A stretch of DNA of 64,000 nt from Mumia flava (GCF_002797495.1 NZ_PGEZ01000001.1:558001-622000), one strand, 5' to 3'. Shown: positions 8,823-60,165, numbered from the stretch's first letter. Notes: a model not told the origin generated them from the letters alone. Numbers and translations: made by a program.

Positions 8823-8826
<4 letters not shown>

Positions 8827-9560: not shown

Positions 9561-9580
9561 CCCACGAACGGACGGACACG

Positions 9581-12374: not shown

Positions 12375-12375
12375 G

Positions 12376-14993: not shown

Positions 14994-14994
14994 C

Positions 14995-23144: not shown

Positions 23145-23157
23145 TAGATCATATATC
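23145..23157 (+). promoter_or_regulatory. Regulon site B between divergent operons
   Basis: TAGATCATATATC is the best match to the consensus. It lies between the hydrolase/ABM operon (minus) and the RCCR-like/epimerase operon (plus). TATGAT hexamers occur here on both strands and could serve as divergent -10 elements, so a bound regulator would block both promoters. The RCCR-like ATG is only 15 bases downstream. Confidence 0.65.
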
Positions 23158-32029: not shown

Positions 32030-32042
32030 GATATACGATATC
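32030..32042 (-). promoter_or_regulatory. Regulon site C upstream of the ABC importer
   Basis: GATAT-ACG-ATATC is a perfect 5-bp inverted repeat with a 3-bp spacer, the most symmetric copy of the motif. It lies 30 bases before the binding-protein start and near the 3' end of the gene at 32050-33384. Confidence 0.65.
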
Positions 32043-32049
32043 GAGCGAC

Positions 32050-34406: not shown

Positions 34407-34442
34407 CGACGGCTCCTCGTCCGGGGGGTAGGAACGATCCGT

Positions 34443-34477
34443 CCCGGGTGGGTGTCGGCCGGCGACACCCACCCGGG
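34443..34477. terminator. Terminator-like hairpin after the WxL-like gene
   Basis: Arms 34443-34457 and 34463-34477 pair perfectly (15 bp) around a 5-base loop. It lies 59 bases past the stop of the WxL-like gene and upstream of the DUF916 gene, so it may attenuate or end the surface-protein transcript. Confidence 0.75.
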
Positions 34478-34536
34478 TCGGGTTACTTCGGTGGTGCGGT
34501 TCTCGTCATCTCAGATGACGTGTCGGGACCCGAGGG

Positions 34537-36282
34537 TCACGACAGCGTCAGCGTGAGCAGACCGGTGTAGTTGCCGGCTGCCTGCGACGACCCGACCTCG
34601 AGCGAGAGCCCGGCGTCGGCGAGGGTGTCGCCGCCGCTGGTCCCGTCCGTGCCCAGCCCGGTCGTGGCGACCGAGCAGAGCGGCAGGTCGGTGGAGTCCG
34701 TCGTGAACGACCCGGTGCCACCCGCGACGACGGTGTCGTCGTTGTTGGCGTCGGCCGTGCACGACGGCGTCCAGCTCATCGCGCTCGACGGGATCGTGAA
34801 GTTCCCGCCGGCGGGGTTCGCCGGACCGTTGAGGCCGGAGAACCGGCCCACGAGCGACCAGCCGAGGGTGCCACCGCGGTAGTCCATGACGGTGACGTCC
34901 TGCAGGTCGCCGGTCGAGGTCTGGACGGTGCCGTCCAGCGTGACCCCGTCCATCGCGACGTTGCCGGCGTCCTTCGACATCTTGAGGTCACCGGCGACGA
35001 CCGTGAGGTCGACGGTCTCGAGCAGCGAGCAGCTGCCCGTGGTGGCCGCACCCTGCTTGGCGGTGCAGGTGTCACCCGAGAAGGTGAAGGCCTGCGAGCC
35101 GAACAGGACGGTCGGAGGCGGACCGGCCGCGTGGGTGCGGCTGGCGCCGATGAACGCGGTGGCCGCGTCGTTGACCGTGAAGGTCGCCGAGATGTTGCCG
35201 GACGAGTCGGCCGTCGTCGAGACGGTCGGGTCCGACGACGCCGGCGGCGGGAACGGCGGACCGTTCTGGTAGCCGCCGATCGTCACGGCCTGGCCCGGGT
35301 CCCAGTTGCTCCCGGAGACCGTCACCACGGTCCCGGCGCCACCGCCGGTCACGTTGGTGGACACCGTCACGCCGGCGAGGACGGTGATCGGAGTCAGGCT
35401 CGTCTCACCACCCGACGTGACCTTCAGGGCCCGTGAACCGGTGGTCGCGCCCGAGGGCACGGCATAGGTTCCCGAGCCCGTACCCGCGGCGGCGATCGTC
35501 ACGGAGCCGGTGGTGGCGTCGCAGGTGCTGCCCGACGCGTTGCACAGCTCGACCGTGCCGGTCCCCGCACCCGCGAAGTTCGACACGCCGAAGCTGATCG
35601 CATCACCGCTGCGGGCCGCCGTGGTGACGACCTGGTTGGTGATGCCGGTGATCGTCGCCGTCGGCCCGACCGCGGAGAAGCTCGCCGCGATGTTGGTGTC
35701 CAACGGGGTGGTGGCGGGGTTGACGCCGTTCGCGACGCCGACCGACTGACCGTTGCAGTTCACGCGGGTCAGGAAGGTCGGGATGTCGTAGATCACCTTG
35801 CGCAGCCGGACCGTGTTGGTCCCTGCCGAGGTGATCGTGAACGAGCCGCTGATGGTGTCACCGGGGATCAGCGCAGCACCGCCCGCGGAGAACCCCGAGG
35901 TGATCGCCGGCAGGTTGGTGCCGTTCACCGAGAAGTAGTAGTACGCCGTGCCGCTGGCCGGCGGACCACCGTTCTTCGGCCCCTTGTTGAACGTCAGCGA
36001 GAAGTCGCGCGTGCTGCCGACGGTCGTGCCACCGGTGGTGGTGATGGTGTAGTCCGCGTCACCGACGGGCGCCATCGCCGGGTCGGTCCACGGTGCGAGC
36101 GTGGACGAGGTGTTGCTCGCGGGGTTGGTGTCCTCGATGTCGGCTCCACTCGGGGGTGAGTAGACCCAACATCCACCTGTGGGGGTTACCGCTGCCGCTG
36201 GTCCGGCGCTGACGACGACCGCCGACGCGGCCAGCATGCCGGCTCCCGCCAGCAAGGCGACCGTGCGATTCTTCGATCTCAT
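34537..36282 (-). CDS. WxL-domain-like secreted surface protein
   Basis: A 581-residue exported protein with a 31-residue signal peptide. Residues about 32-200 match the N-domain of the LPXTG protein at 24916 (TGGCWV, NKGPKNGGP). A repeat region about 205-400 holds Ig-like strands (VVTVSGSNWDPGQAVTIGGYQ). The last 170 residues resemble a WxL domain: QDVTVMDYRGGTLGWSLVG contains the first W-x-L, while the terminal YTGLLTLTLS replaces the usual second Trp. WxL domains bind peptidoglycan non-covalently, often through a DUF916 protein such as the one encoded next. AGAGGAG lies six to seven bases before the ATG. Confidence 0.75.
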   Translation of the reverse strand: MRSKNRTVALLAGAGMLAASAVVVSAGPAAAVTPTGGCWVYSPPSGADIEDTNPASNTSSTLAPWTDPAMAPVGDADYTITTTGGTTVGSTRDFSLTFNKGPKNGGPPASGTAYYYFSVNGTNLPAITSGFSAGGAALIPGDTISGSFTITSAGTNTVRLRKVIYDIPTFLTRVNCNGQSVGVANGVNPATTPLDTNIAASFSAVGPTATITGITNQVVTTAARSGDAISFGVSNFAGAGTGTVELCNASGSTCDATTGSVTIAAAGTGSGTYAVPSGATTGSRALKVTSGGETSLTPITVLAGVTVSTNVTGGGAGTVVTVSGSNWDPGQAVTIGGYQNGPPFPPPASSDPTVSTTADSSGNISATFTVNDAATAFIGASRTHAAGPPPTVLFGSQAFTFSGDTCTAKQGAATTGSCSLLETVDLTVVAGDLKMSKDAGNVAMDGVTLDGTVQTSTGDLQDVTVMDYRGGTLGWSLVGRFSGLNGPANPAGGNFTIPSSAMSWTPSCTADANNDDTVVAGGTGSFTTDSTDLPLCSVATTGLGTDGTSGGDTLADAGLSLEVGSSQAAGNYTGLLTLTLS

Positions 36283-36436: not shown

Positions 36437-37099
36437 GTGTTCGTTCGTTCGACGGCCACCCGCAGCCTCGCGCGCGCCGCGGCAGAGCTGCTGGTCACCT
36501 GCGGTGCCGTGGTCCTGCTCTTCGGGGTCTACCTCGTGTTCTGGAGCGACGTGCAGGCGAGCGTGGCCCAGGTCGGGCTGCGTGACGACTTCGAGCAGCA
36601 GGTCGAGGCCGCCCAGGACGGGCCCGCCACCCAGCCGGTCGCCGCGAAGCCGGCCGTCGGCAGCGGGATCGCCGTCATGTCGATCCCCCGGCTCGGCGCC
36701 GACTGGTCGTGGGTCGTCGTCGAGGGCGTGACCGACGACCAGATCGCCCGTGGCCCGGGTCACTTCCCCGAGACCGCGCTGCCGGGCCGGACGGGCAACT
36801 TCGCGGTCGCCGGCCACCGTGCGACCCACGGCGAGCCCTTCGCCCACCTCGACCAGGTCCAGCCGCGTGACACCATCCTGGTCGAGACACCCGGGGCGGC
36901 GTACGAGTACGTCGTGACCCGCACGGAGATCGTCGCGCCGAGCTCCACCGGGGTCCTGCTTCCGGTGCCGGACCGCCCGGACGCGACGCCGAAGAAGGCC
37001 CGCATCACACTCGTCACGTGCCACCCACGGTGGGGTTCCAGCGAGCGGATGATCGTGCACGGCCACCTCCAGCGCACCATCACCGGGACGGGAGCCTGA
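36437..37099 (+). CDS. Class E sortase
   Basis: A 220-residue sortase with one N-terminal membrane helix (about 14-36). Catalytic His127 lies in AGHRATHGEPF, Cys195 in TLVTCHPRWG and Arg204 in SSERMIVHG, the class E arrangement common in Actinobacteria. It joins LPXTG proteins to the peptidoglycan. The GTG start has AGAGAGG about seven bases upstream. The two LPXTG genes at 24916-26942 are the only substrates in the window. Regulon site D lies just upstream. Confidence 0.9.
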   Translation: MFVRSTATRSLARAAAELLVTCGAVVLLFGVYLVFWSDVQASVAQVGLRDDFEQQVEAAQDGPATQPVAAKPAVGSGIAVMSIPRLGADWSWVVVEGVTDDQIARGPGHFPETALPGRTGNFAVAGHRATHGEPFAHLDQVQPRDTILVETPGAAYEYVVTRTEIVAPSSTGVLLPVPDRPDATPKKARITLVTCHPRWGSSERMIVHGHLQRTITGTGA

Positions 37100-37439: not shown

Positions 37440-38183
37440 TCAGTGCTCGCGCAGCAGCGAGCCGAACCCGTCCAGCTGGTCGTGGATCCCGTTGTCGCGC
37501 AGGGCCATCCACCAGGTCGCCGCGTTGATCGCGATCACCGGCTTGCCGAGCCACCGCTCGGCCTCGTCGGCGAGCTCGGACATGCACAGGTTCGTGCCGC
37601 ACTGCACGATCGCATCGACGTCCTCGCCGTCGACCGCCAGGATCGCGTCGCGCAGGTCCTGCTCGCTCACGTGCGCGATCGACACGGCCGTCGGGCAGCG
37701 CAGACCACGGATCGAGGCGACCTCGAAGCCGAGCTCACCGAAGAACCGCACGACGTTCTCGTCGCCGATCGGCTGGTACGGCGTGACGACACCGATCCGA
37801 CGCGCACCGTACAGCTGGAGCGCGCGCTCGCACGCCTCCGCTCCGGTGGCGACCTCCAGGCCGGTGATGTCGGTGATCTGCTTCTTGAAGCGGCGGTTGC
37901 CCTCCACGCCGTCCCAGAAGGTCTCCGCGCTCATGCCCATCACCATGTAGTCGGGCTCGCAGGTCAGGACCCGCTCGCACGAGGACCCGATCTCCTCGCG
38001 GATCTGGTCGAGCAGCCGCTCCATGCCGGCGTCGTCGGCCATGTTCTGGTCGCGGATGTGGATCCGGGAGAAGTGCGAGGTGACGCCCCGCGGCGCCATC
38101 ATCGCGAACTCGGGCTCCACGATCGTGTTGGTGCTGGGGGCGATCACGCCGAACTTGCGGCGCCAGCCGAGGCGGTCGGTCAT
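37440..38183 (-). CDS. Maleate isomerase/arylmalonate decarboxylase family protein
   Basis: A 247-residue Asp/Glu-racemase-superfamily protein. The N-terminus FGVIAPSTNTIVEPEF and the C-terminal KPVIAINAATWWMALR fit the maleate isomerase/arylmalonate decarboxylase group. The first catalytic position reads MGMS (82-85), lacking Cys as in arylmalonate decarboxylase, and the second has Cys195 in VQCGTNLC. A decarboxylase, or an isomerase working with one Cys, is therefore more likely than a standard two-Cys maleate isomerase. AAGGAG lies before ATG 38183. It is the last gene of the operon. Decarboxylation of a malonate-like group is a testable idea, since chlorophyll ring E carries a beta-keto ester. 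Confidence 0.75.
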   Translation of the reverse strand: MTDRLGWRRKFGVIAPSTNTIVEPEFAMMAPRGVTSHFSRIHIRDQNMADDAGMERLLDQIREEIGSSCERVLTCEPDYMVMGMSAETFWDGVEGNRRFKKQITDITGLEVATGAEACERALQLYGARRIGVVTPYQPIGDENVVRFFGELGFEVASIRGLRCPTAVSIAHVSEQDLRDAILAVDGEDVDAIVQCGTNLCMSELADEAERWLGKPVIAINAATWWMALRDNGIHDQLDGFGSLLREH

Positions 38184-38860
38184 CGGACTCGCTCTCCTTC
38201 GGGGACTTCGGGGGTGCTCCGAGCACCCAGGCGGCTGCGCAGGCGCAGCGCGCCCAGCAGGAAGCACAGCTGGACCAGCGAGTTGGTCAGCTGCTCGGCC
38301 CACTGCACCAGCTCGGTCTGGTGCTCGCGGGCCGCGAGCGGGGGCAGGACCAGCGTCCCGGCGAGGTACACCACGAACAGCCAGGCTCCGAGCCGGTCGC
38401 CGTGCCGTCGGCTCAGCGTCGCCGCCAGCACGCCGACCGCCACCGCGGCCAGAGCCGCGACACCGAGCATCGGCATGGTGCTCCCGAGCCCGACGGCGCA
38501 CCCGGCCCCGACGAGAGGAACCAGCGCGAACGGCCACCAGGCGACCGCCCGCCTGCGCAGCACGCTCGTCAGCGCCCACGCGATCGCGCTGAACCCGACC
38601 ATCAGGCACGGGAACAGAAGGTTCTCCAGCAGGTCGTACTGCCGGCACGGCTCCATGGCGACCAGCAGCTTCCAGACCGCCTTCGCCAGCCCGCCGAGGG
38701 TGACCACGACGCCGCCGGCCAGCGCCGCCGCCCGCACGCGCGGCAGCGCGCGGCCGGTCGCGGAGGCGAGCGCGAGCGCGCCGGCACCGGCCAGCACGAC
38801 CGGGACGAAGTCCTCCACGGCCAGCGCCAGGCCGTACTCGGTGCACGGATCGACCGCCAT
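38180..38860 (-). CDS. Multi-spanning membrane protein of unknown function
   Basis: A 226-residue protein with about six membrane helices and polar termini. No transporter signature is visible. Two Cys-containing extracytoplasmic or loop segments (DPCTEYGLAL and EPCRQYDLLENLLFPC) share a P-C-x-x-Y/Q pattern that could form disulfides or bind a cofactor. ATG 38860 overlaps the SDR stop by one base. It may be a membrane transport or anchoring part of the operon. Confidence 0.6.
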   Translation of the reverse strand: MAVDPCTEYGLALAVEDFVPVVLAGAGALALASATGRALPRVRAAALAGGVVVTLGGLAKAVWKLLVAMEPCRQYDLLENLLFPCLMVGFSAIAWALTSVLRRRAVAWWPFALVPLVGAGCAVGLGSTMPMLGVAALAAVAVGVLAATLSRRHGDRLGAWLFVVYLAGTLVLPPLAAREHQTELVQWAEQLTNSLVQLCFLLGALRLRSRLGARSTPEVPEGERVR

Positions 38861-39687
38861 CACGCCGCCGCTCGGTCACCGGACGGCGCGAAGATGTCCC
38901 GCGACCGGAACCCTGCGGTCATGAAGCGCCCGAACGCCTTCGACCGGGTCAGCCACGCGACCTTGGCGCCGTGCTTGGGCTCGGCCAGCAGCCGCTCGGC
39001 GAGCCAGGGGGTGACCGTCTCGACCCGGTCGCCGAGGATGTTGAAGATCCGGCGGGCCTTCTCGAACGCCTCGGGCTGACCGTCGTAGTCGTCGACGAGG
39101 AGGTCGGTGGCAACGATCCCCGGCGAGAGGGACCCGACCTTCACCGAGGTGCCCTTGGTCTCCTTGACCAGCGCCGCGGTGAGGTAGCTGACGCCGCGCT
39201 TGCTGGCGCCGTAGACCGCCATCCCCGGCTGGATCTGCCCGTCGGAGCCGAACCCCTCCATGTTCCAGATCCAGCCGCCCCCGGACTGGGCGGCCAGGCC
39301 CGCCGACGCGACCGCGCAGCCGTGCACGGTGCCGACCAGGTTGGTCGCGACCACGGTCTCGACGGCCTCGGACGGCACCTCGGCCAGCGGGCGGCGGGGC
39401 GCGGACATCCCGGCGTTGTTGATCCAGACGTCGACGCGCCCGAAGGTCGCGACCGCGTGGTCCCACAGCGCGCTCAGCGCCGTACGGTCGGTGATGTCGG
39501 CGACCAGGCCGGTGACCGCGAACGGGTCGCCGGCCGCACCGAGCTCGGTCACGGCGTCGGCGAGCCGCTCGGGCGAGCGCCCGCACACCACGACCCGGCA
39601 GCCGCGCGCCAGCAGCTCGCGGGCCAGGCCGAGCCCGATCCCCCGGGTCCCGCCGGTCACGACGACGACCCGGCCGGCGGCGCTCAC
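38860..39687 (-). CDS. Short-chain dehydrogenase resembling chlorophyll b reductase (NYC1/NOL-like)
   Basis: A 275-residue classical SDR. The nucleotide motif TGGTRGIG is at residues 11-18, NNAG at 90-93, and the catalytic Tyr159 and Lys163 in YGASK. Several non-generic segments match plant NYC1/NOL as I recall it: VDVWINNAG, TNLVGT, GGGWIWNMEGFGSDG (plant GGHIFNMDGAGSGG), AVYGASKRGV, LVKETKGTSVKV, SLSPGIVATDLL and RRIFNILGDRVETV (plant MFNIICELPETV). NYC1/NOL reduce the 7-formyl of chlorophyll b to hydroxymethyl. Related bacterial SDRs of unknown role share some of these, so the substrate is inferred. Its operon neighbours are RCCR-like and PAO-like genes. Both ends are coupled by short overlaps. 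Confidence 0.7.
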   Translation of the reverse strand: MSAAGRVVVVTGGTRGIGLGLARELLARGCRVVVCGRSPERLADAVTELGAAGDPFAVTGLVADITDRTALSALWDHAVATFGRVDVWINNAGMSAPRRPLAEVPSEAVETVVATNLVGTVHGCAVASAGLAAQSGGGWIWNMEGFGSDGQIQPGMAVYGASKRGVSYLTAALVKETKGTSVKVGSLSPGIVATDLLVDDYDGQPEAFEKARRIFNILGDRVETVTPWLAERLLAEPKHGAKVAWLTRSKAFGRFMTAGFRSRDIFAPSGDRAAA

Positions 39688-40673
39688 CGCTGCGGCTCCC
39701 AGCTCAGCAGGCCGTGCACGACGTGGCTCGTGGTGTCGCCGCGCATCAGCTGCCAGACCACGGCCAGGTCACGGGTGTCGGGGTCGATGAGGACCTCGCG
39801 GCCCTTGATCTTCTCGACCCCGCGCGCGTCGGTCCCCACCAGGTGCTGGCTGGTGAACAGCGCCCGGCCGTACGCGATCGCGTTGCCGTAGACCTCGGGA
39901 CCGTCGTACTGGACCCGGGCGCCGTCGCGCGAGCGCTCCAGCGCGTAGCTGCGGTCGAGCGCTCCGCGCCAGGTGATCCGCTGCCGGGCACGCCGCAGCG
40001 ACTCCGGCTCGTGCTCGATCACGACCTCGGTCTCGCCGAGCGGCTCCTGGTCGGCGCCGTGCACCGCGAGCGTCCCGGTCCAGCGGCCGCGCTCCTTGGT
40101 CGGCAGGACCTGCGGGGTCGACCCGCGCCGGGTCTCCGCCGCGATCCACTCGTCGACGAAGGCCTGGGTCTGCGGGTTCGTCGCGTGGTCGGACGTGCGT
40201 TTGTAGACGCCGTTGAAGACCGCGCAGACCGCCCAGCCGTCGTGCAGCACCGACGAGTAGACCTGGGTCTCGCCGTCGGGCAGCACCTGGTTCCAGGTGC
40301 GCAGGTCGGCCTGCCAGCCCGGCGAGTAGTAGTGCGCGTCCACGAACAGGCCGTACGGCTGGCCGGTGCCGTAGAAGTCCGGTCCGCAGTAGACGCGGTT
40401 CTCGTCGGAGTCGACGATGCCGAAGTCGAACTGCGCACCGAGCTCGAGGCGGTTGCGCAGCGGACCCGAGCCCTCGAGGCTGGTCCGCATCCAGTAGCGG
40501 GCGACGTCGCCGTCGACCACGCTCGCCCGGACCACGTGCTCGTAGCCGACGTGGTTGCCCTCGGCGTCGAAGAGCGAGGGCCGGCCGTGCCACTCCCCCT
40601 CGATCCGCTGCTGCCAGGCGCTGGTCTCGCTGCTCTGCGCGGAGGCGTCGGTCTCCGCGTCCGTCGCGGTCAT
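39684..40673 (-). CDS. Uncharacterised beta-barrel (lipocalin-like) protein
   Basis: A 329-residue soluble protein without signal peptide. It appears as two similar beta-rich halves (about 20-165 and 185-325), each beginning with a WxG-type strand (IEGEWHGRPSLFD, KERGRWTGTLAVHG), as in lipocalin-like or DUF3598-like barrels. Tetrapyrrole-handling proteins such as bilin lyases and some chlorophyll-binding proteins have such barrels, so a carrier or lyase for the operon's substrate is possible. I cannot name a family. ATG 40673 overlaps the upstream gene by four bases. Confidence 0.55.
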   Translation of the reverse strand: MTATDAETDASAQSSETSAWQQRIEGEWHGRPSLFDAEGNHVGYEHVVRASVVDGDVARYWMRTSLEGSGPLRNRLELGAQFDFGIVDSDENRVYCGPDFYGTGQPYGLFVDAHYYSPGWQADLRTWNQVLPDGETQVYSSVLHDGWAVCAVFNGVYKRTSDHATNPQTQAFVDEWIAAETRRGSTPQVLPTKERGRWTGTLAVHGADQEPLGETEVVIEHEPESLRRARQRITWRGALDRSYALERSRDGARVQYDGPEVYGNAIAYGRALFTSQHLVGTDARGVEKIKGREVLIDPDTRDLAVVWQLMRGDTTSHVVHGLLSWEPQR

Positions 40674-41446
40674 GCCCGTACCTCGTTGTCCAGCAGCTGG
40701 GCCCGGACGTCCTCCATGGCCTCGTCGCCGACCAGACGAGCGACCTGCGCCCACACGTGGTCGACGTCGGGGCTGAAGATGTTGGCGCGGTTGCGGGCGT
40801 CACGGAGGCTCAGGTCGGTGTCGGCCACGTCGGCGACCACCGCGTCCGGGACCGGCGCGGCGAGCAACCCGAACCAGTGGTCCAGGTAGGTGGTCACCGC
40901 GTCGTCGATCCCGGTGAACGCCGCCTCCTCGGCCCGGTGCACGAGCATCCAGGGCGACATCATCGCGAACTGGCGCGGCCCGATCGCGGCCTTGCTCAGC
41001 CCGGGCCGCTGCGAGACCTCCTCGAACGCCGGGGTCAGCGGGGCGTGCGCCCAGTCCAGGTACGTCAGGTGGGTGCCGAGGTCGGCACGCGGGATCAGGT
41101 CGAGGTGGAAGGCGTACGAGCCCTGCCCCTGCACGGAGTCCAGCGTGAAGTGCGGCACCGGGAGGTCGGGACGGACGAAGGCGAAGACCATGTGGCTGTC
41201 CAGCCCGATCGCGCGCACGGTGAGCCCGACGTAGACCAGCTTGGCGACCGGCTCCGTCTCGTCGGCGGCGGTGAACACGCGGACCTCGCCCACGGGGTCC
41301 GGCGACATCGGCGAGACGAGCGTCCGGAACGCCCGGCCGGAGGCCGACCGAGCCTCGACGAGGCCGCGCTCGTGGACGATCCGCTCCCAGGTGCGCCGGC
41401 ACAGCCCGCCGGAGAGGCTCGTGCTCTCGGCCTCGGTGGCGCTCAT
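40670..41446 (-). CDS. Divergent RCCR-like/bilin-reductase-fold protein, paralogue 3
   Basis: A 258-residue protein that shares the central signature of the two other RCCR-like proteins: VPHFTLDS (97-104), HLDLIPRADL (114-123), HLTYLDW (126-132) and a later RQFAMMSPWMLVHR segment in place of VRAGLSPTA. The position after VPHF keeps an acidic residue (Asp) where plant RCCR has the catalytic Glu, unlike paralogues 1 and 2. The fold is shared with ferredoxin-dependent bilin reductases (PcyA/HY2), so either identity is possible. It sits directly downstream of the Rieske oxygenase with an ATGA overlap, the expected place for an enzyme acting on its product. Confidence 0.5.
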   Translation of the reverse strand: MSATEAESTSLSGGLCRRTWERIVHERGLVEARSASGRAFRTLVSPMSPDPVGEVRVFTAADETEPVAKLVYVGLTVRAIGLDSHMVFAFVRPDLPVPHFTLDSVQGQGSYAFHLDLIPRADLGTHLTYLDWAHAPLTPAFEEVSQRPGLSKAAIGPRQFAMMSPWMLVHRAEEAAFTGIDDAVTTYLDHWFGLLAAPVPDAVVADVADTDLSLRDARNRANIFSPDVDHVWAQVARLVGDEAMEDVRAQLLDNEVRA

Positions 41447-42660
41447 GCCGGCACCTCCTCGCCCGGGGCCTCCACGGTGTCGGTCCGCGGGAGGTCGCCG
41501 CGCTCCTCGCGCTCGGCGCGCTGCCCGAGCAGCTCCTTGCTCCGGACCTCCTTGAAGTTCCACGCCGAGGCCAGCTCGGGCACCTCGCGCCGGACCGGCG
41601 ACGGTACGACCCGCGCCTCGACCCGCGCCGGGCCCTCGCCGACGATCGTGTTGCCCTCGACCGACCATCCCGCCTCGATCAGCTCGCGACGGCGGCGGCG
41701 GTACATGACCTGGTTGTAGTCGCTGCGCACGTGCAGCTCGTCGGACAGGTCGTACGGCAGCAGCTCGGGCCGCACCGTGTCGACGACGGCCTCGTCCTGC
41801 TTCAGCACCTTGAACACGCGGCGCCTGGCGTCCTTGTCGGCCCACCTGCCCTTGAAGAAGGTCCGCAGCGCGATGAACTTGACGAGGGTGGTCTCCTCGT
41901 CGATCGGGATGTTGATGTCGAAGATCTTCAGCTTTCCCATCGGCAGGTCGACCTCGAGCAGGATCGCGTTGGGCAGCCACCACGTGGTGGACACCGGCAC
42001 GAGGGGGCGGTTCAGGAGGTCGCCCCCACCCGGGTTCATCCGTGCCCACAGGCCCTTGGGCTTCGGCGGGTTCAGCTTGACCGAGGCCTTGCAGTGCCAG
42101 GGGGACGTCTCCACCTCGAACTCCGGCACCTCGGGCTTCTCCGGGTTGCCGAACGCGCCGCGGTGCACGAACGGCGTGTGCGCGATGTCGACGCCGTTCT
42201 CCAGGATCCGCTCGTAGTTCGACTTCCACAGGAACGTCCCGGTCACCGCACGGTAGGTCTCGGTGTCGTCGACCGCGGACCAGTCGGGGATCGGCGGCCG
42301 CTCCTCCTCCGGCAGGTCGCCGAGGAAGACCCAGATCATCTTGTGCCGCTCGACCACCGGGTACGCGTCGATCCGCGCCTTGCGCGGGATCCCCTTCTCG
42401 GGGTGCGCGGGGATCTTCAGGACCTCGCCGCGCTCGTTGTACTCCCACCCGTGGTACGGGCAGACGATGCAGTCGCCCTTGAGCTCGCCCGCCGAGAGCG
42501 CGGCACCGCGGTGGACGCACAGGTCCGAGAGGCACACGACCGATCCGTCGCTGGGCTTGCGGTAGATCACCAGCTGCTGCCCCAGCACCTTGATGCGCTT
42601 GGGCGTCCCGACGACGAGGTCGTCGCTGAACTCCACCCCGTACCAGAAGTTCTTGAACAT
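41443..42660 (-). CDS. Rieske non-haem iron oxygenase (pheophorbide a oxygenase-like)
   Basis: A 405-residue oxygenase alpha subunit. The Rieske cluster ligands are Cys48-x-His50 and Cys67-x2-His70 (CVH, CPYHGWEY). Mononuclear iron ligands Asp158, His161 and His166 lie in NGVDIAHTPFVH, so it is complete. The architecture (single subunit, Rieske then catalytic domain) is that of the PAO/CAO/TIC55 and VanA-type oxygenases. The plant PAO C-terminal membrane segment and CxxC are not present, so it is a soluble relative. PAO opens the pheophorbide ring at C4/C5 to give the RCCR substrate; RCCR-like genes flank this gene. No reductase or ferredoxin is adjacent. AGGAGGAG lies before ATG 42660. Confidence 0.85.
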   Translation of the reverse strand: MFKNFWYGVEFSDDLVVGTPKRIKVLGQQLVIYRKPSDGSVVCLSDLCVHRGAALSAGELKGDCIVCPYHGWEYNERGEVLKIPAHPEKGIPRKARIDAYPVVERHKMIWVFLGDLPEEERPPIPDWSAVDDTETYRAVTGTFLWKSNYERILENGVDIAHTPFVHRGAFGNPEKPEVPEFEVETSPWHCKASVKLNPPKPKGLWARMNPGGGDLLNRPLVPVSTTWWLPNAILLEVDLPMGKLKIFDINIPIDEETTLVKFIALRTFFKGRWADKDARRRVFKVLKQDEAVVDTVRPELLPYDLSDELHVRSDYNQVMYRRRRRELIEAGWSVEGNTIVGEGPARVEARVVPSPVRREVPELASAWNFKEVRSKELLGQRAEREERGDLPRTDTVEAPGEEVPA

Positions 42661-42674
42661 CGCGGAATCTCCTC

Positions 42675-43670
42675 CTACCGTCGCCGGATCTCGGCGATCT
42701 GTGGACCGGGCTGCTCGACCAGCAGCTCCAGCGCGTCTTTGGCCTCGGCCTCCCCGCGCACGTGGGCGCGCAGGAAGGTCGCGACGGTCTCGGCGAGCGT
42801 CGCTCGCAGGGCCGCGGCATCGCCGCCGGTGGCCTCCTCGAGGAAGCCGCGAGCCGTGGTGGGGTCGTCGGGGTGGGCGGCGAGCATGTGGCCCGCGCCT
42901 GCGAGCGTGACGAGCCACGCGTCGGTCGTGGCCGGGACGGCGTCGCGCCAGGTGGCGGCGATCGGGTCGTGGTCGGGATCGCCCGCGTCGCCGCCGTAGC
43001 GCAGCGCGCTCGCGGCGACGACACCGTCCGCGCTGCCCCCGACGAGCAGGACCGGGACCTCGACCGCGACCGGCAGCACGGTGCCCGCCGCGTGTCCGAG
43101 CTGCTGCGACGCCATCGTGTGCGCGCCGTAGGTGACGACGGCCCGAACCTGGTCGAACCAGGCCGGTCGGGCCGACTGCAGCGCGACCGTCCCGCCGGCG
43201 GAGTGCCCGAACAGGCCGACGGCGCCGGGCTCGAGCAGCCCGGCGAGCGGACCGTGGTGGCCGAGCCGGCCGACCGTCTCGAGGACGGGCCCGAGCGCCT
43301 GGGTGGTGGGGCGGCGGCCGTAGGTGTCAGGTCCGACCGCGCCGAGGTCGACCCCGGGAGTCAGCCCGTGCTCACCCGCGAACAGCTCCCCGACCCAGTC
43401 GTAGGTCACCGCGACGAACCCGGACTCGACGAGCGTGGTCGCGAGCCAGGCGTACGCCTCGGCTGCCACGTTGACGCCCGACAGCAGGACCACGACCGGG
43501 TACGGTCCCCCGGCGGGGTCGGCGGCCAGACGACCGCTCATGCGCTCGGCGTCCGTGCGGGCGGCGAGCGCGGGGTACCTCACGGTCACGTGCGCGGTGT
43601 CGTACGGCGCCTCGGCGCCCGGGATCCGGGTCGCGGTGCGGAGCGCGCGGACGAGGGCGGGAGCGGCCAC
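42675..43670 (-). CDS. Chlorophyllase-like alpha/beta-hydrolase
   Basis: A 331-residue alpha/beta-hydrolase without signal peptide. The oxyanion strand is YPVVVLLSGVN, the nucleophile Ser157 lies in LFGHSAGGTVAL, and His261 lies in LAGAGHMLAAHPDDPTTARG. The layout, including the GHxxxL-DD-P-x-x-RG segment after the His and the closing helix VATFLRAHVRG, parallels plant chlorophyllase (GHLDMLDDDTPGIRG, FMKAYLQG). It would hydrolyse the phytyl ester or another ester of the tetrapyrrole. Dienelactone-hydrolase-like or lipase-like alternatives cannot be excluded. GTG 43670 lies five bases after the RCCR-like stop. Confidence 0.65.
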   Translation of the reverse strand: MAAPALVRALRTATRIPGAEAPYDTAHVTVRYPALAARTDAERMSGRLAADPAGGPYPVVVLLSGVNVAAEAYAWLATTLVESGFVAVTYDWVGELFAGEHGLTPGVDLGAVGPDTYGRRPTTQALGPVLETVGRLGHHGPLAGLLEPGAVGLFGHSAGGTVALQSARPAWFDQVRAVVTYGAHTMASQQLGHAAGTVLPVAVEVPVLLVGGSADGVVAASALRYGGDAGDPDHDPIAATWRDAVPATTDAWLVTLAGAGHMLAAHPDDPTTARGFLEEATGGDAAALRATLAETVATFLRAHVRGEAEAKDALELLVEQPGPQIAEIRRR

Positions 43671-43675
43671 GGTCC

Positions 43676-44491
43676 TCAGGCGCCCTGCTCGTGCGCCCGC
43701 GGCAGCATCCGGTCGCCGCCCCACAGCGCCCGGACGAGGCGCTGGGTGGTGTCGGCCCCGAAGTAGCGGTCGCCCATCACGTTCGCCGGGTCCCGCTCGG
43801 CGATGTTGCGACGGATCGCCTCGTCGGCCGCAGCGAGCGCGGCCTGCTCGTCGGCGGGCACGCGCGGCGCCTCGTCGACCCAGCCGAGCCAGCGCTCCAG
43901 GTGCTCGGTGGCCAGCTCGCTGACGAGGTCGGTCATCCGCTCGTCTGCGGGCGCCATGTAGCAGAAGGCCGTCGGTGAGAGCCCGGCCCGGACGAATCCC
44001 GAGCGGCTGATGAACGGCTCGAGCCAGTCGTTGTCGTTGCGGACCTGCTCCCAGCGCGCATTGACGGGCTCGTAGTACCGGTCGTAGGAGTCGGTGTCGG
44101 TGACGAGGTAGCTGCGCGGGACGGAGTCGAGGTACATCCAGCCGTGAGGGAAGCACCCGAGCGCCATCCCGAAGTGCGGAACCTTGACCTGGGGTCCGAG
44201 CCAGATGGTCAGGTGCACGTTGCAGAAGCCGGCGGCGGCGTTCTCCATGTGGGAGTGGACCATCCAGTCGATCTCCGGACCGGCGTAGGTGCGGACCCGT
44301 CCGCGCGGCCCGTCGTCGGAGCCGACGTCCTCGAGGACCTCCGAGGACGGGTCGCGCTCGAGCGAGAAGCGCTCCTGGACCCGTGCCTGCAGCCGCTCGA
44401 CGAGGGCCAGCCAGGCGGAGAAGGTCTCGGTCACGTCGGTCGGAGCCGACTCGTCCAGGTGCTCCTGCACGTGCTTCAGCGTCTGACTCAC
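43676..44491 (-). CDS. RCCR-like protein (red chlorophyll catabolite reductase family), paralogue 2
   Basis: A 271-residue protein, the clearest RCCR relative in the window. VPHF (104-107), LDSVPRSYL (121-129), YDRYYEPVN (136-144), FVRAGLSPTA (166-175) and the C-terminal segment with AIRRNIAERDP and YFG match, in order, the plant LDLPHRKDL, YLKEYYQ, FVRSAFSPTA, SFRRKSIEDD and MFG. Plant RCCR reduces red chlorophyll catabolite with ferredoxin. The acidic residue of the plant active site near VVELI is not kept here, while the later Asp is. It is the first gene of the eight-gene operon: GTG 44491 with GAGGAGGAG upstream, and regulon site E 36 bases before it. Confidence 0.7.
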   Translation of the reverse strand: MSQTLKHVQEHLDESAPTDVTETFSAWLALVERLQARVQERFSLERDPSSEVLEDVGSDDGPRGRVRTYAGPEIDWMVHSHMENAAAGFCNVHLTIWLGPQVKVPHFGMALGCFPHGWMYLDSVPRSYLVTDTDSYDRYYEPVNARWEQVRNDNDWLEPFISRSGFVRAGLSPTAFCYMAPADERMTDLVSELATEHLERWLGWVDEAPRVPADEQAALAAADEAIRRNIAERDPANVMGDRYFGADTTQRLVRALWGGDRMLPRAHEQGA

Positions 44492-44526: not shown

Positions 44527-44539
44527 TATATATGATCTA
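44527..44539 (-). promoter_or_regulatory. Regulon site E before the RCCR/Rieske operon
   Basis: Read on the minus strand the site is TAGATCATATATA, 12 of 13 bases identical to site B. It lies 36 bases before the start of the RCCR-like gene. The rest of 44540-44672 shows no gene. Confidence 0.65.
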
Positions 44540-44672: not shown

Positions 44673-46163
44673 TCAGGAGGGGTACGCGGTGGCGCCCAGA
44701 CCGCGACCGCCGGCCCGGAACGCCGCGGGAGCGTGCAGCACACACGTCTGCACGTGCTCGAGGATCCCCTCGTCGCCGTACTCGCGGCCCCAGCCGGAGC
44801 GCTTCACACCGCCGAACGGTGCGCGCAGCGACAGACCGGTGCGGTTGTGGGTGTTCACGAAGGTGAAGCCCGCGTCGAGCCGGGCGCCGACCGCGAACGC
44901 GCGGTCCTCGTCCGCGGACCACACCGAGGCCCCCAGACCGAGGTCCCCCGCGTTCGCACGACCGACCGCCTCGTCGAGGGTGTCGAAGGCCAGCACCGGC
45001 AGCGTCGGTCCGAACTGCTCGACGGCCACGACCGCGTCGGTGTCCGAGGCACCGAGCACGAGCGTGGGCCGCACGAACCAGCCCGCCGCCAGGTCGGTAC
45101 CCGGATCCACCGAGCCGAGCTCGGTGACGTCCGCTCCGCCGGCGCGCGCCGCACCGACGAGGTCCTCGACCCGGCGGGCCGACGGCTCGGAGACCACCGG
45201 ACCCATGGTCACGCCGTCGTGGAGGGGGTCACCGGTCCGCAGCAGCCGGCCGGCCGCCGCCCGCAGCCCGTCGACGACCTCGTCGTAGCGCGACCGGTGG
45301 ACGTAGAGCCGCTTGAGCGCCATGCACACCTGACCGCTGGTCGCGAACGCCGCCATCACCATCCGCTCGAGGGACCCGTCGTCGAGCACGGCGTCGTCCA
45401 GCACGAGCGCCGGGTCGTTGCCGCCGAGCTCGAGCAACGACGGCGTCAGCGCCCGTGCCGCCGTCGCCGCGATCGCGCGACCCGCCGTCTCGCCACCGGT
45501 GAACGCGACCCGGTCGACCCCCGGGTGCCCGACGAGCGCGGTCGCGGTCGACGCGTGCCCGTGCACGACCTGGAGGCAGCCCTCCGGAAGCACCTCGCCC
45601 ATCCGCCCCACGAAGCGCTCGACGGCGAACGGAGCCAGGGGCGACGGCTTGACCACGATCGCGTTGCCACCGACGAGCGCCGGCGCCACCTTGAGCGCGG
45701 CCAGCACGACCGGCGCGTTCCACGGCGTGACGGCCCCCACGACTCCGTACGGCCGGTGCCGCCGCACCAGCCGACCGTCCTCGTCGTCGGTGACGCCGTC
45801 GACGAGCAGCGCCTCGCCGCGGTCGGCCGCCCAGCGCAGGACGGCCAGCGAGAACGTGATCTCGCCACGGCAGTCGGGCAGCGGCTTGCCGGTCTCGCGG
45901 GCCATCAGCTCGGCGAGCGCCTCGACGTCGGACGCGAGCAGGTCCGAGGCCACCCGCAGCAGGCGGGCGCGCTCCGGCACCGGCTGCCGGCTCCAGACCG
46001 CCTGGGCGTCCCGTGCGCGACGGACGGCAGCGTCGACGTCGTCCGGACCGGTCGTCGCGAGCCGGCCGACCACCTCGATGGTCCGGGCCGGGTTCTCGCG
46101 GACGACCGTCTCCGCAGCGACGGCCGCGGCCGACGCCCGCGGCGCCGGAGCTCCGGACGTCAC
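44673..46163 (-). CDS. Aldehyde dehydrogenase (1)
   Basis: A 496-residue NAD(P)-dependent aldehyde dehydrogenase. The cofactor region is VVGAVTPWNAP, the general base Glu245 lies in LLELGGNDP and the nucleophile Cys280 in SGQVCMA. It oxidises an aldehyde to the acid. The GTG start overlaps the FAD monooxygenase stop by four bases. It is the last gene of the operon starting at 52354. Aldehydes released by the Ltp2-like aldolase of the first operon are plausible substrates. Confidence 0.9.
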   Translation of the reverse strand: MTSGAPAPRASAAAVAAETVVRENPARTIEVVGRLATTGPDDVDAAVRRARDAQAVWSRQPVPERARLLRVASDLLASDVEALAELMARETGKPLPDCRGEITFSLAVLRWAADRGEALLVDGVTDDEDGRLVRRHRPYGVVGAVTPWNAPVVLAALKVAPALVGGNAIVVKPSPLAPFAVERFVGRMGEVLPEGCLQVVHGHASTATALVGHPGVDRVAFTGGETAGRAIAATAARALTPSLLELGGNDPALVLDDAVLDDGSLERMVMAAFATSGQVCMALKRLYVHRSRYDEVVDGLRAAAGRLLRTGDPLHDGVTMGPVVSEPSARRVEDLVGAARAGGADVTELGSVDPGTDLAAGWFVRPTLVLGASDTDAVVAVEQFGPTLPVLAFDTLDEAVGRANAGDLGLGASVWSADEDRAFAVGARLDAGFTFVNTHNRTGLSLRAPFGGVKRSGWGREYGDEGILEHVQTCVLHAPAAFRAGGRGLGATAYPS

Positions 46164-47353
46164 CCGGCCGCCTCGGCCGCGGGACGGGGCCGCAGGGAGT
46201 CGATCATCGACGTGCGCAGCAGGTACGAGCGCGCCGCAGCGGGGTCGGCCGCGAGCGCCCGCAGCTCCGCGTGGTGTGCGGCGCGCGCCCGCGGGTCGGA
46301 CTCACGCAGCTGCTTCCAGTTGTCGTGCGTCACGGTCCTGACGTAGGACCGTGCGACCTCGCGGCGCCGCGCGAGGACCGCGTCGAGCTCGTCGACGCCC
46401 GCGCGGCCGTCGAGCAGGTCCGCCAACGCACCCGACACCAGCACGGCGTCGTGGACGCCGCTGTTCATCCCCATCCCGCCGAGCGGGTTGTTGACGTGAG
46501 CGGCGTCGCCCACCAGGATCGCCGGGCCGACCCGGAAGGTGCTCGCGACCCGCTGGTGGACCGCGTAGAGCGACGAGTGCAGGACGTCCCAGTCCCGTCC
46601 GAGGTCAGCGACCCGGCGCAGCCGCTCCTGCACCCGGGCGGGGGCGACCTCGGCTTCGGCCGGGCTCTCGGGATCGGTCGGGAACAGGATCCGCCAGTGC
46701 TCGGGAGTCCGCAGCAGCACGAGCCACTCACGGGGGTCGAAGACGTAGTTCACGTCGGCGATCCCCGGCAGCGCGGCGCTCAGGTCCTCGGTGGTCGAGA
46801 CGACGAGGAACCGCTCCGGGTACGTGAGCCCCTCGAACGCGGCACCGATCGCCTTGCGCACGCGCGAGCCGGCGCCGTCGGCACCGACGACCCAGTCCGC
46901 GGTCCAGGTCCGTCCCGTCGCCGAGGTCACGCTGGCGGTCGCGCCCTCGATCGTCACGCCCGTCACCGGCTCGCCGAGCTCCAGGGCGCAGCCGGCGTGC
47001 CGCAGCAGGGCCTCGGCCAGGATCGGCGTCAGCTTGCTCTGCTCGCACTGCACCCGGAACGGGTAGCGGGTCTCGTCGGCGAGCAGCCCGAGGTCGAGCT
47101 CGGCGATCGGGCCGTCGGTGCGGTCGCGGTACTGGAACCGCTGGGACTCGATCCCGACCGACCGCAGGGCGTCGAGGACCCCGAGGTCGTCGAGCATCTC
47201 CAGCGTCGGGGGGTGGTACGTGCTCGCCCGCGACTCGGACGACAGCTGCGTACCCGCCTCCAGCACGGTCACGGCGTGGCCCGCACGAGCGAGGCTCAGG
47301 GCGGAGGTCAGGCCGACCGGACCCGCCCCGACCACGAGGATCCGCTCACTCAT
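46160..47353 (-). CDS. FAD-dependent aromatic monooxygenase (UbiH/PHBH type)
   Basis: A 397-residue group A flavoprotein monooxygenase. The FAD-binding GAGPVG motif is at residues 9-14, the DG motif GADGAGSR at 157-164 and the second FAD motif GDAAHVNNP at 282-290. Such enzymes hydroxylate aromatic or heteroaromatic rings with NAD(P)H and O2. A pyrrole, phenol or enol ring of a pathway intermediate could be the substrate. Both ends overlap neighbours by four bases. It lacks a signal peptide and acts in the cytoplasm. Confidence 0.88.
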   Translation of the reverse strand: MSERILVVGAGPVGLTSALSLARAGHAVTVLEAGTQLSSESRASTYHPPTLEMLDDLGVLDALRSVGIESQRFQYRDRTDGPIAELDLGLLADETRYPFRVQCEQSKLTPILAEALLRHAGCALELGEPVTGVTIEGATASVTSATGRTWTADWVVGADGAGSRVRKAIGAAFEGLTYPERFLVVSTTEDLSAALPGIADVNYVFDPREWLVLLRTPEHWRILFPTDPESPAEAEVAPARVQERLRRVADLGRDWDVLHSSLYAVHQRVASTFRVGPAILVGDAAHVNNPLGGMGMNSGVHDAVLVSGALADLLDGRAGVDELDAVLARRREVARSYVRTVTHDNWKQLRESDPRARAAHHAELRALAADPAAARSYLLRTSMIDSLRPRPAAEAAG

Positions 47354-52381: not shown

Positions 52382-52394
52382 AATATACAATATC
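52382..52394 (-). promoter_or_regulatory. Regulon site F before the flavin reductase operon
   Basis: AATATACAATATC (GATATTGTATATT on the minus strand) has one mismatch from site A. It lies 28 bases before the flavin-reductase TTG start, in the divergent region shared with the GntR gene. Confidence 0.6.
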
Positions 52395-52462
52395 TGATTG
52401 ACCGAGCGCCATGCCTTTCGCCACATGACACGAATGCAACGCCCGGGTGACGGAGGTGCAAG

Positions 52463-60152: not shown

Positions 60153-60165
60153 TAGATCGTATATC
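60153..60165. promoter_or_regulatory. Regulon site H before the CoA transferase operon
   Basis: TAGATCGTATATC differs from site B at one position. It is four bases from the start codon, so a bound regulator would cover the translation start and probably the transcript start. It is the last copy before the housekeeping genes. Confidence 0.62.

Follow-up and report, generated by a model that had tools for sequence, protein, structure and literature searches.

A conserved actinobacterial gene island joining RCC-reductase-family proteins with a Rieske oxygenase: a predicted candidate route for degrading chlorophyll-like pigments

Chlorophyll is degraded in very large quantities every year, and plants stop at phyllobilins; among the matches listed from openly licensed literature, no description was found of bacterial genes that carry the degradation of the tetrapyrrole beyond this point. 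An operon of Mumia flava, located within the 64,000-nucleotide stretch of DNA analysed here (the window), raises the question of whether bacteria possess such a route, since a first-pass annotation had read its genes as relatives of plant chlorophyll-breakdown enzymes. The answer proposed here, as predicted from sequence, is that the gene set resembles a bacterial route, so far undescribed, for degrading chlorophyll-like pigments. The set is large, conserved and apparently co-regulated. In it, relatives of RCC reductase (RCCR), which in plants reduces opened chlorophyll (RCC to pFCC, with ferredoxin), are combined with an oxygenase of the iron-sulphur type and numerous enzymes of degradation.

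Rechecking of coordinates, strand and frames confirmed eight genes on the minus strand at 37440-44491. Overlaps of four bases occur at 41443-41446, 40670-40673, 39684-39687, 38860-38863 and 38180-38183, and the only gaps, of 5 and 14 bases, flank the hydrolase gene CHL (42675-43670), just as the short-overlap junctions had been described. Among the best 80 of 169 relatives, as read with a simple gene caller, the order RCC1-CHL-RIE-RCC2-LIP-SDR-AMD is kept on one strand in 71/80 loci, with a median junction of -4 bases at most gene pairs; many of these loci are congeners and are thus not independent. The RCC1/RIE/RCC2/LIP core also occurs in distant actinobacterial families picked up through PF06405 alone: its members are adjacent to one another in families f67 and f108, while a single 18.5-kb contig carries the whole core in the small-genome family f6, where, as in the other two, relatives of NIT, CitE, CoA-transferase, AMD or others are found nearby. 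Small genomes carry several RCC1-, RCC2- and RCC3-type genes. A real operon that joins RCCR-family proteins with a Rieske oxygenase is supported.

Three proteins of the window belong to the RCCR family or resemble it. RCC1 (43676..44491, minus strand), encoded by the first operon gene, and RCC3 (23172..23990, plus strand) pass the Pfam gathering cut-off of PF06405 (RCC reductase; 24.9 bits) with 50.1 and 57.8 bits, respectively. Their joint profile retrieves Arabidopsis RCCR (2zxk, 3aga) from the PDB at E=7.5e-21 over nearly the whole chain, with bilin reductases next (FDBR matches at 6e-9 and 4e-5), RCC1 being closer to RCCR than to FDBRs. The third protein, RCC2 (40670..41446, minus strand), is a divergent RCCR/FDBR-fold protein which falls below the PF06405 cut-off (13.5 versus 24.9 bits) and whose own profile has no significant sequence match in the PDB. 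It is placed in the RCCR superfamily because of fold comparison: in a Foldseek search of the PDB with its AF2 model (pLDDT 93.4), ranks 1-9 are all Arabidopsis RCCR at a TM of about 0.7, followed by FDBRs. Profile-profile alignment (hhalign) with RCC1/RCC3 agrees (probability 98.3, E=2e-14). The model-based fold test was applied to RCC2, and RCC1 and RCC3 were judged by profile match. The earlier RCCR-like assignment therefore stands for 43676 and 23172 by Pfam, while that of 40670 fails by Pfam score and holds by fold and profile-profile comparison, such that an RCCR match was found for all three products.

To our knowledge, the characterised enzymes of the RCCR fold (RCCR, FDBRs and coproporphyrinogen oxidase) all act on tetrapyrroles. 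Glu154 has a catalytic role in RCCR. At this position, fixed from the F218V chain, Ala is present in 80/81 members of the RCC1 family (Ala110 in RCC1 itself), a count that includes RCC3, which has Val; RCC1 and RCC3 thus both lack the equivalent acidic residue. RCC2 carries Asp there in 80/80 members (Asp103), which we presume from motif comparison may correspond to Asp105 of FDBRs. Because the acidic residue is kept, RCC2 may be the likelier catalytic subunit of an RCC1/RCC2 pair, with RCC1 possibly as its partner. In a midpoint-drawn tree, the single plant sequence lies outside the RCC1, RCC3 and RCC2 groups. The fold common to RCCR, FDBRs and coproporphyrinogen oxidase is stated in PMC10151467. 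Two unrelated-looking motor-complex subunits, Ycf2-FtsHi and Orf2971-FtsHi, also match the RCC2 fold in Foldseek, and the fold by itself is thus no proof of bilin chemistry.

The remaining operon genes, all on the minus strand, fit their earlier labels less closely. RIE (41443..42660) is a Rieske non-haem iron oxygenase of the VanA_C type (PF00355 82.9 bits, PF19112 84.5 bits), in which the PAO-type Rieske [2Fe-2S] and mononuclear iron motifs are present (CxH..CxxH in 78/79 and ENxxDxxHxxxxH in 79/79 family members). It had been called PAO-like, yet PAO-family membership was not borne out: the PAO C-terminal domain, PF08417, is not among its families at E<=1, VanA_C occurring instead, and its nearest solved relatives by phmmer are SxtDIOX/SxtT, NdmA/NdmB and DdmC, demethylases included. 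CHL (42675..43670) is an alpha/beta hydrolase with a GHSAGG motif (GxSxGG in 78/78), scoring 26.6 bits (E=4.4e-6) with PF12146, just under the cut-off of 27; its match to the chlorophyllase family PF07224 covers 37 residues and, at 15.5 bits (E=0.0075), stays under the cut-off of 26, which leaves the chlorophyllase assignment unsupported, and the gene is missing in some clusters. The supposed NYC1/NOL-like protein, SDR (38860..39687; PF00106 148 bits), is indistinguishable from a generic short-chain dehydrogenase/reductase, its YxxxK (77/77) and TGxxxGIG (65/77) motifs being common to classical SDRs in general. AMD (37440..38183) belongs to the Asp/Glu-racemase superfamily and is arylmalonate-decarboxylase/EutA-like (PF17645 68.8 bits), its EutA score of 72.7 bits lying far under the EutA cut-off. 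Maleate isomerases have two catalytic Cys residues, of which AMD, as aligned to them, keeps just the second. MEM (38180..38863) reads as a membrane protein with no Pfam or NCBIfam match, an accessory member that many loci lack or have in the form of a different family.

The lipocalin-like protein, LIP (39684..40673, minus strand), is modelled as a double beta-barrel of the DUF3598/BFA1-like type (AF2, pLDDT 89.4). Its top Foldseek matches are BFA1 (5yvf; E=1.4e-9) and the DUF3598 protein 2o62 (E=3.5e-8), with 9-13% identity and TM of 0.47-0.65. These two known proteins are of chloroplast and cyanobacterial origin, BFA1 presumably being the chloroplast one. LIP has no credible Pfam family and no PDB sequence match, and DUF3598 (which we take to be PF12204) was not among the Pfam families matched at E<=10 by any of 40 members of the LIP family, a search in which HMMER filters drop most weak matches; the resemblance is therefore one of fold only. 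In two overlapping genome samples LIP was found only beside RCCR relatives: all 8/8 LIP-positive genomes of the class sample (n=296) are also PF06405-positive, and both occur in the same 3 genomes of the phylum sample (n=396), with Fisher p values of 1e-13 and 1e-7 that are not phylogeny-corrected. One 99% complete genome (G055) has the cluster without LIP.

The operon is real, but it is too small a unit, being one part of an island that spans about 53 kb. An exact match to the motif AGATNNNRTATA occurs three times in the 4.4-Mb genome, each time inside the window: upstream of RCC1 (44527..44538, minus strand), of a flavin reductase operon (52384..52395, minus) and of a left operon beginning at 7531 (7488..7499, plus). 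Copies with one mismatch lie upstream of RCC3 (23146..23157, plus), upstream of an ABC importer operon (32032..32043, minus) and 4 bases from the called start of a CoA-transferase (60154..60165, plus). With at most one mismatch, the motif precedes RCC1 in 8/9 Mumia/Nocardioides loci and the flavin reductase operon in 9/9. This shared promoter-side motif ties the operon to an island with an importer, surface proteins, amidases and C-C lyases, and the island (7.5-60.2 kb) is probably, at least in part, one regulon.

The left half of the island carries uptake, surface and lyase genes. The left operon (7531..18656, plus strand) codes for DUF4437/cupin, MaoC-type hydratase, luciferase-like oxidoreductase, MmgE/PrpD and acyl-CoA dehydrogenase proteins, named by Pfam (genes at 7531, 9581, 10102, 12376, 14995 and 15492) or NCBIfam (17499); the gene at 8823 has no Pfam match, and, on reading, 11139 looks like a CoA-transferase gene and 15926 like a thiolase gene. 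It is followed by a CitE/RipC-like C-C lyase (18668..19552, minus; PF03328 108.1 bits, RipC 147.6 bits, under cut-off) with relatives near the core in loci L114 and L115, a gene whose sequence reads as an IclR-type regulator (19637..20443, minus), an acyl-CoA synthetase (20586..22139, plus; NCBIfam PRK06187 429.9 bits, under the cut-off of 476), and an alpha/beta hydrolase (22114-22806; PF12697) with an ABM-domain protein (22803-23120; PF03992), both on the minus strand; relatives of the two form a pair close to the core in loci L114 and L117. Two LPxTG-type surface proteins (24916..26942, minus) carry LPQTG and LPKTG; the first (24916-26289) has no Pfam family match, and the second (26286-26942) has a neocarzinostatin-type domain (PF00960 71.3 bits). 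A branched-chain-type ABC importer (27011..31999, minus; PF02653, PF00005), whose relatives follow the RCC operon in the small-genome locus L117, includes a product (30617-31999) that reads as its binding protein, without a family match. Further surface-type proteins (32050..36282, minus) comprise one without a Pfam match (32050-33384), one with a WxLIP-type domain (33384-34406; PF06030 41.4 bits) and one with a borderline neocarzinostatin-type domain (34537-36282; PF00960 25.4 bits versus a cut-off of 25), and a sortase lies beyond them (36437..37099, plus; PF04203 113 bits). In the same set of the best 80 of 169 relatives, 50/80 loci have left-half families close to the RCC operon, the single IclR-type family accounting for 29, with DUF4437 in 19/80 (10-kb flanks) and the acyl-CoA synthetase in 5/80; as a control, six gene families taken from the window beyond the limits of the island were found there in 0/80.

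Upstream of RCC1, the minus strand codes for aldehyde dehydrogenase 1 (44673..46163; PF00171 418.9 bits), an FAD-dependent monooxygenase (46160..47353; PF01494 187.4 bits), a PEP mutase/methylisocitrate-lyase-type protein (47350..48240; PF13714 115 bits; prpB 210.7 bits, under the cut-off of 354.4), aldehyde dehydrogenase 2 (48237..49739; PF00171 355.7 bits), an acyl-CoA-dehydrogenase-fold flavin enzyme, possibly a two-component monooxygenase (49736..51034; PF02770, PF02771, PF08028; weak DszC/HsaA matches), and a flavin reductase with a C-terminal HMGL-like region (51041..52339; PF01613 153.7 bits, PF00682 30.1 bits). A GntR/FCD regulator (52524..53234, plus; PF00392 and PF07729) is followed on the minus strand by NIT, a CN-hydrolase of the amidase/nitrilase superfamily (54405..56099; PF00795 164 bits), an isochorismatase-type hydrolase (58258..58941; PF00857 121 bits) and the CoA-transferase (58941..60149; NCBIfam succinyl-CoA:mesaconate and related transferases, under cut-offs). 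In the best 80 of 169 relatives, the families of aldehyde dehydrogenase 1, the monooxygenase and aldehyde dehydrogenase 2 occur in 71/80, 66/80 and 64/80 loci, and NIT in 75/80 within the stretch fetched, often directly upstream of RCC1; within 10-kb flanks, the isochorismatase-type and CoA-transferase families occur in only 1/80 and 2/80 of these closer loci. Relatives of both are found near the core in L114, L116 and L118, with the former also in L123 and the latter also in L115.

Families, folds, conserved order, co-occurrence and the shared motif are observed features of this island. It probably represents a catabolic regulon for taking up and degrading a tetrapyrrole, most likely a chlorophyll-derived one (pheophorbide, red catabolites or phyllobilins); we infer the substrate and every reaction, chlorophyll use being the leading reading. 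Sortase-linked surface proteins and the ABC importer would capture the hydrophobic substrate, and CHL would remove an ester group. RIE may then oxidise or open the macrocycle, or act on a linear form, after which the adjacent RCC1/RCC2 pair would reduce the opened tetrapyrrole, as RCCR does after PAO in plants, while the predicted double barrel of LIP may hold or carry the pigment. Judging by family names, cleavage and oxidation of the chain by SDR, the aldehyde dehydrogenases and the flavin enzymes could yield lactams or imides derived from its pyrroles, which NIT, the isochorismatase-type enzyme, AMD, CoA-transferases, hydratases and CitE/methylisocitrate-type lyases could lead into central metabolism. 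The complete pathway, from surface capture of chlorophyll or its products through a PAO-like Rieske step with RCC1/RCC2 to mineralisation of the pyrrole fragments to central metabolites, found across numerous genera of actinomycetes and with an expansion in one actinobacterial family whose genomes are very small, is a more tentative proposal. The preferred reading of a tetrapyrrole-degrading regulon is weakened by the position of RIE outside the PAO family with demethylases among its nearest solved relatives, by the sub-threshold score of CHL, by the lack of the RCCR acid in RCC1 and RCC3, by the motor-complex subunits that share the RCC2 fold, by the cluster without LIP in G055 and, for the steps below the tetrapyrrole, by the scarcity of isochorismatase-type and CoA-transferase genes near the operon in the closer set.

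An alternative that we regard as unlikely is that the compounds broken down are bilins formed from haem (biliverdin, bilirubin and their products), a haem oxygenase encoded elsewhere opening the ring and RIE and the RCC pair acting on biliverdin-type chains. The FDBR matches of the RCC1/RCC3 profile would suit such substrates, as would the ABM-domain protein, the ABM fold being used by IsdG-type haem oxygenases, yet RCC1 is nearer to RCCR. A haem oxygenase is encoded in the window genome, but at 2.92 Mb, far from the cluster, and although canonical ones occur in 4/9 other cluster genomes, none was matched in the remaining five (5/10 of the cluster-bearing genomes examined), four of which are at least 93% complete and one 70%. 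Their absence fits ring opening by the cluster or uptake of an already opened tetrapyrrole. Staygreen (Mg-dechelatase) had no match at E<=0.01 in the 10 cluster genomes, a search in which the control also matched nowhere.

Slightly less probable still is the recruitment of RCCR-fold proteins to another bulky hydrophobic compound, such as a sterol, polyketide or lignin-type aromatic, which the island would catabolise. RIE resembles demethylases and, far under cut-off, a sterol monooxygenase, similarity to HsaB/HsaA is seen under cut-off for the flavin reductase and the enzyme of acyl-CoA-dehydrogenase fold, and the missing acid of RCC1 and RCC3 points the same way; set against this are the three RCCR-family genes of the island and their multiplication in small genomes, the acid kept throughout RCC2 and the presence of a DUF3598-like partner. 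Synthesis of a tetrapyrrole-derived pigment or natural product is highly improbable, for although RCCR/FDBR-fold enzymes make bilin chromophores elsewhere and neocarzinostatin-type proteins carry chromophores, the genes present, with amidase-type hydrolases, a CoA-transferase, C-C lyases and an importer, have a catabolic look, and no assembly-line genes were found among the window genes scanned.

The preferred reading, degradation of a chlorophyll-derived tetrapyrrole, sets the island beside several known systems. With the plant PAO/RCCR (phyllobilin) pathway (PMC8219035), it shares a Rieske-type oxygenase, RCCR-family reductases, an SDR and an esterase-like hydrolase; it differs in the VanA_C type of RIE, in having 2-3 RCCR paralogues and a hydrolase outside the chlorophyllase family, and in being linked with numerous genes for carbon degradation as well as with an importer and with proteins of the cell surface. 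The FDBRs, including bacterial pre-PcyA, belong to the same superfamily as the RCC proteins and likewise occur in heterotrophic bacteria, yet they are more distant from them by sequence than RCCR is, and the pre-PcyA clusters (PMC10151467) comprise bilin-binding globins, V4R and iron-sulphur proteins, whereas the Mumia island is catabolic-looking. The lumichrome cluster of Nocardioides similarly combines Rieske and amidase steps in a catabolic cluster, but no RCCR-family or lipocalin-like member was found in the accessible part of its description (PMC12746152). The first-pass annotation knew of no described bacterial operon that joins these families, and none of this kind was found in openly licensed literature among the matches listed. 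Whether bacteria take tetrapyrrole breakdown further can be probed directly with the genes named here and their promoter-side motif, in hosts already in culture (Mumia, Nocardioides, Actinomadura, Streptomyces and others), and the bacterial branch of the RCCR family provides an entry to study the origin of chlorophyll breakdown in plants.

The eight minus-strand genes running from 44491 down to 37440 lie in one coupled operon, as the first-pass annotation had proposed; coordinates and junctions bear this out, neighbouring genes overlapping by 4 bases at five junctions, while the gene of an alpha/beta hydrolase (CHL, 42675-43670) is flanked by spacers of 5 and 14 bases. The window has a G+C content of 72.9% and belongs to a genome of 4.4 Mb, and the nearest named relative of the first protein of the operon (RCC1, 43676-44491) is found in Mumia, at 83% identity in a scan of species genomes which possibly omitted the window's own.

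RCC1 scores 50.1 bits with the RCC reductase profile (PF06405, cut-off 24.9 bits) and RCC3, a protein of the same family encoded on the plus strand (23172-23990), scores 57.8 bits. A joint profile of RCC1 and RCC3 (28 sequences) matches Arabidopsis RCC reductase (RCCR) in the PDB over nearly the whole chain (E=7.5e-21), with a plastid bilin reductase (6e-9) next and phytochromobilin synthase (4e-5) after it. The label of RCCR-like, which had also been given to RCC2 (40670-41446), holds for RCC1 by its PF06405 score; RCC2, at 13.5 bits, stays under that cut-off, and it is the profile alignment and the modelled fold that bear the label out. Its own profile has no significant sequence match in the PDB, while its alignment with the RCC1 and RCC3 profile has a probability of 98.3 (E=2e-14). 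The nine best Foldseek matches of its AlphaFold2 model (pLDDT 93.4) are all RCCR structures (E 5e-11 to 3e-9, TM ~0.7), followed by HY2, PcyA, PebB, PebA and PebS; the matches further include two subunits of chloroplast FtsHi motors. The RCCR match by HMM or structure, suggested earlier as a check on the products of 23172, 40670 and 43676, was thus obtained for all three, and we take them all to be proteins of the superfamily of RCCR and the bilin reductases (FDBR).

The active site sets the pair apart. Glu154, which we take to be the catalytic residue of RCCR, was located by counting from the F218V mutant chain and lies five residues after a Pro conserved in the alignment. This position is Ala in 80 of 81 members of the RCC1 family, counted with the window's RCC3, which has Val; RCC1 and RCC3 belong to the RCC reductase sequence family but are without the acid, whereas RCC2 carries Asp in 80/80 members. 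We infer from this difference that RCC2 is the better candidate catalyst of the pair, whereas RCC1 could serve as its partner or rely on other residues.

The remaining operon proteins resemble the plant enzymes less than had been thought. The supposed PAO-like oxygenase (RIE, 41443-42660) is a Rieske oxygenase with intact metal-site motifs, but of the VanA_C type, and profile scores rule out membership of the PAO family (PF08417); its nearest solved relatives are SxtDIOX/SxtT, methylxanthine demethylases and dicamba demethylase. CHL had been called chlorophyllase-like and is indeed an alpha/beta hydrolase, but its score lies under the chlorophyllase cut-off (PF07224), and membership of that family was rejected. 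The defining features of PAO and chlorophyllase, tested in RIE and CHL, were not found in them. The proposed NYC1/NOL-like SDR (38860-39687) cannot be told apart from an SDR of a generic kind. The comparison of AMD (37440-38183) with arylmalonate decarboxylase was sound, this protein resembling both that enzyme and EutA; a maleate isomerase is disfavoured, since of the two Cys just the second is present. LIP (39684-40673) has neither a credible Pfam family nor a PDB sequence match. Its AlphaFold model is a double beta barrel (pLDDT 89.4), structurally closest to BFA1 and a Nostoc DUF3598 protein (TM 0.47-0.65, 9-13% identity), yet LIP is not classed with DUF3598, whose defining features, tested in LIP, were not found in it.

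The arrangement recurs among close relatives. RCC1-specific peptide patterns were searched in one genome for each of ~85,000 species, and the best 80 of 169 relatives were kept, all of them actinobacteria as judged from genus names; being the closest relatives, many of them congeners, these loci are not independent, and some are cut by contig ends. By tblastn, most of the 80 show the order RCC1-CHL-RIE-RCC2-LIP-SDR-(MEM)-AMD, where MEM (38180-38863) is an operon gene, and a simple gene caller gives the complete ordered set without MEM in 71/80. Within the fetched stretches RCC1 is present in 79 loci, CHL in 77, RIE in 78, RCC2 in 79, LIP in 78, SDR in 76 and AMD in 78, together with a CN-hydrolase (NIT, 54405-56099, minus strand) in 75, two aldehyde dehydrogenases in 71 (44673-46163) and 64 (48237-49739), an FAD monooxygenase (FMO, 46160-47353) in 66, an acyl-CoA-dehydrogenase-fold enzyme in 52 and a flavin reductase in 34. 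One locus (L108) carries RCC1 alone. In Actinomadura sp. J1-007 (L047, 8321-10810), where RIE and LIP lie on the opposite strand, a single 829-aa open frame spans NIT and RCC1, the latter being missed by the gene caller; because the linking stretch reads like an out-of-frame tail, a fusion was rejected and a sequencing or assembly frameshift is probable.

The nitrilase Cys pattern is found in 71/76 NIT proteins when drawn widely (3/76 with a narrower pattern); the remaining five proteins, 343-402 aa long, come from short gene calls. In its C-terminal half, the window's NIT reads like a further CN-hydrolase domain, now degenerate. A gene for a CbiM-type cobalt transporter (53645-54337) was treated as incidental to the system; in two Mumia loci (L032, L033) no gene is called in its place, between NIT and the GntR-type regulator (52524-53234).

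There are more distant hosts as well. By PF06405 alone, 11/296 genomes of the same class and 3/396 of the phylum are positive, in samples which overlap and both count the window's own genome. LIP occurs in 8/296 and 3/396 genomes in the same kind of sample, every one PF06405-positive (Fisher p 1e-13 and 1e-7, not corrected for kinship); the three PF06405 genomes without LIP are G050 (86% complete), G067 (76%) and G055 (99%). Two genome families, f67 and f108, hold RCC1, RIE, RCC2 and LIP side by side, with relatives of NIT and CitE nearby and, in f108, also relatives of a CoA-transferase, AMD and FMO. A third, f6, is an actinobacterial family with small genomes of 1.0-1.7 Mb (G004, G032, G083, G067, G096, G050; loci L008-L013, L015-L020, L022-L031, L116-L123, L126). 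All four genes lie on one 18.5-kb contig in its locus L116, and L117 reads RCC1-CHL-RIE-LIP-LIP-SDR-MEM-AMD, without RCC2. Each of the six f6 genomes has 2 to 5 RCC2-type genes besides RCC1- and RCC3-type ones, and four have two LIP genes; since so many paralogues are kept in such tiny genomes, the pathway may be central to the f6 way of life. A FastTree phylogeny of 71 sequences was drawn by midpoint without an FDBR outgroup and has low support at some nodes; its RCC1 and RCC2 groups each hold f6, f67 and f108 members, and the pair therefore looks old; the single plant sequence falls outside both groups. Carriage on plasmids or viruses was rejected: plasmids gave no RCC1, RCC3 or RCC2 match at the limits used, and none of 22 viral stretches fitting a pattern was confirmed.

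A shared motif ties the operon to the rest of an island of about 53 kb, which would at least in part form a single regulon. Seven AT-rich spots (at least 12 A/T in 16 bases) occur in the window, each between genes as called here, and the motif AGATNNNRTATA, derived from some of them after the window was seen, has 7 matches with at most one mismatch against 0.47 expected, a number reached in 0/100 shuffles. Six stand directly upstream of called gene starts, at 7488 (gene 7531), 23146 (RCC3), 32032 (an ABC-importer operon), 44527 (RCC1), 52384 (the flavin reductase operon) and 60154 (a CoA-transferase); the seventh (9487) falls inside a gene. Two features were not built into the choice of motif, namely the exclusivity of its exact copies and its conservation in relatives. 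The genome has 3 exact copies, none of them outside the window (backward control, 0), and 41 copies with at most one mismatch, 7 of them in the window (control, 23). At that tolerance the motif lies upstream of the flavin reductase in 9/9 Mumia/Nocardioides loci and of RCC1 in 8/9, all matches there being outside called genes. In 50/80 loci the RCC operon has families of the left half (7.5-36 kb) in its neighbourhood, 29 of these through an IclR-type regulator, as against 0/80 for six control families from outside the island. Next after the operon in the f6 locus L117 come relatives of the ABC importer and of the window's WxLIP-type protein.

Judged by its genes, the island is a catabolic one, with an importer, flavin enzymes, a pair of aldehyde dehydrogenases, hydrolases of the amidase type, a CoA-transferase, hydratases and C-C lyases. 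Adjoining the catabolic genes at 24916-37286 are a sortase and surface proteins with WxLIP-type and neocarzinostatin-type domains, predicted to be linked by sortase; to our knowledge, neocarzinostatin-fold proteins look unusual outside antibiotic clusters. With an RCCR pair next to a Rieske oxygenase, the route would start from a tetrapyrrole; the putative steps below it are read only from family names. The window's genome and 4/9 further cluster genomes have a canonical haem oxygenase, but none was found in the other five, of which four reach a completeness of at least 93%; this favours, without proving, chlorophyll-type substrates or ready-made phyllobilins rather than haem-derived biliverdin. 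Hosts without that enzyme would either take up a tetrapyrrole whose ring is already open or open it themselves, through the cluster or through an enzyme of a different kind. An ABM-domain protein (22803-23120) adjoins RCC3 and has relatives in the f67 and f6 clusters; the ABM fold is that used by IsdG-type haem oxygenases. A search of 10 genomes for Staygreen gave nothing at E<=0.01, where the control gave no match either, and at a looser limit the window's own genome had one match at chance level (12.3 bits). Two genes near RCC1 in the f67 cluster (L114:4115-7848) read like hydantoinase/5-oxoprolinase subunits, and lactam opening by their products would fit a bilin pathway.

A known lumichrome-degradation cluster was rejected as an explanation, no RCCR-type protein being seen in the part of its description available (PMC12746152). 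No report of the operon was found in searches of open-licence PubMed Central papers, nor, as the first-pass annotation had held, was any bacterial operon joining these families. One paper was found there which places bacterial proteins near RCCR, with Schekmanbacteria sequences in the RCCR outgroup according to the portion available (PMC10151467), and the plant PAO/RCCR pathway is covered in the accessible part of PMC8219035. If the present reading is true, the system would work like PAO/RCCR, with other components and with a downstream route.
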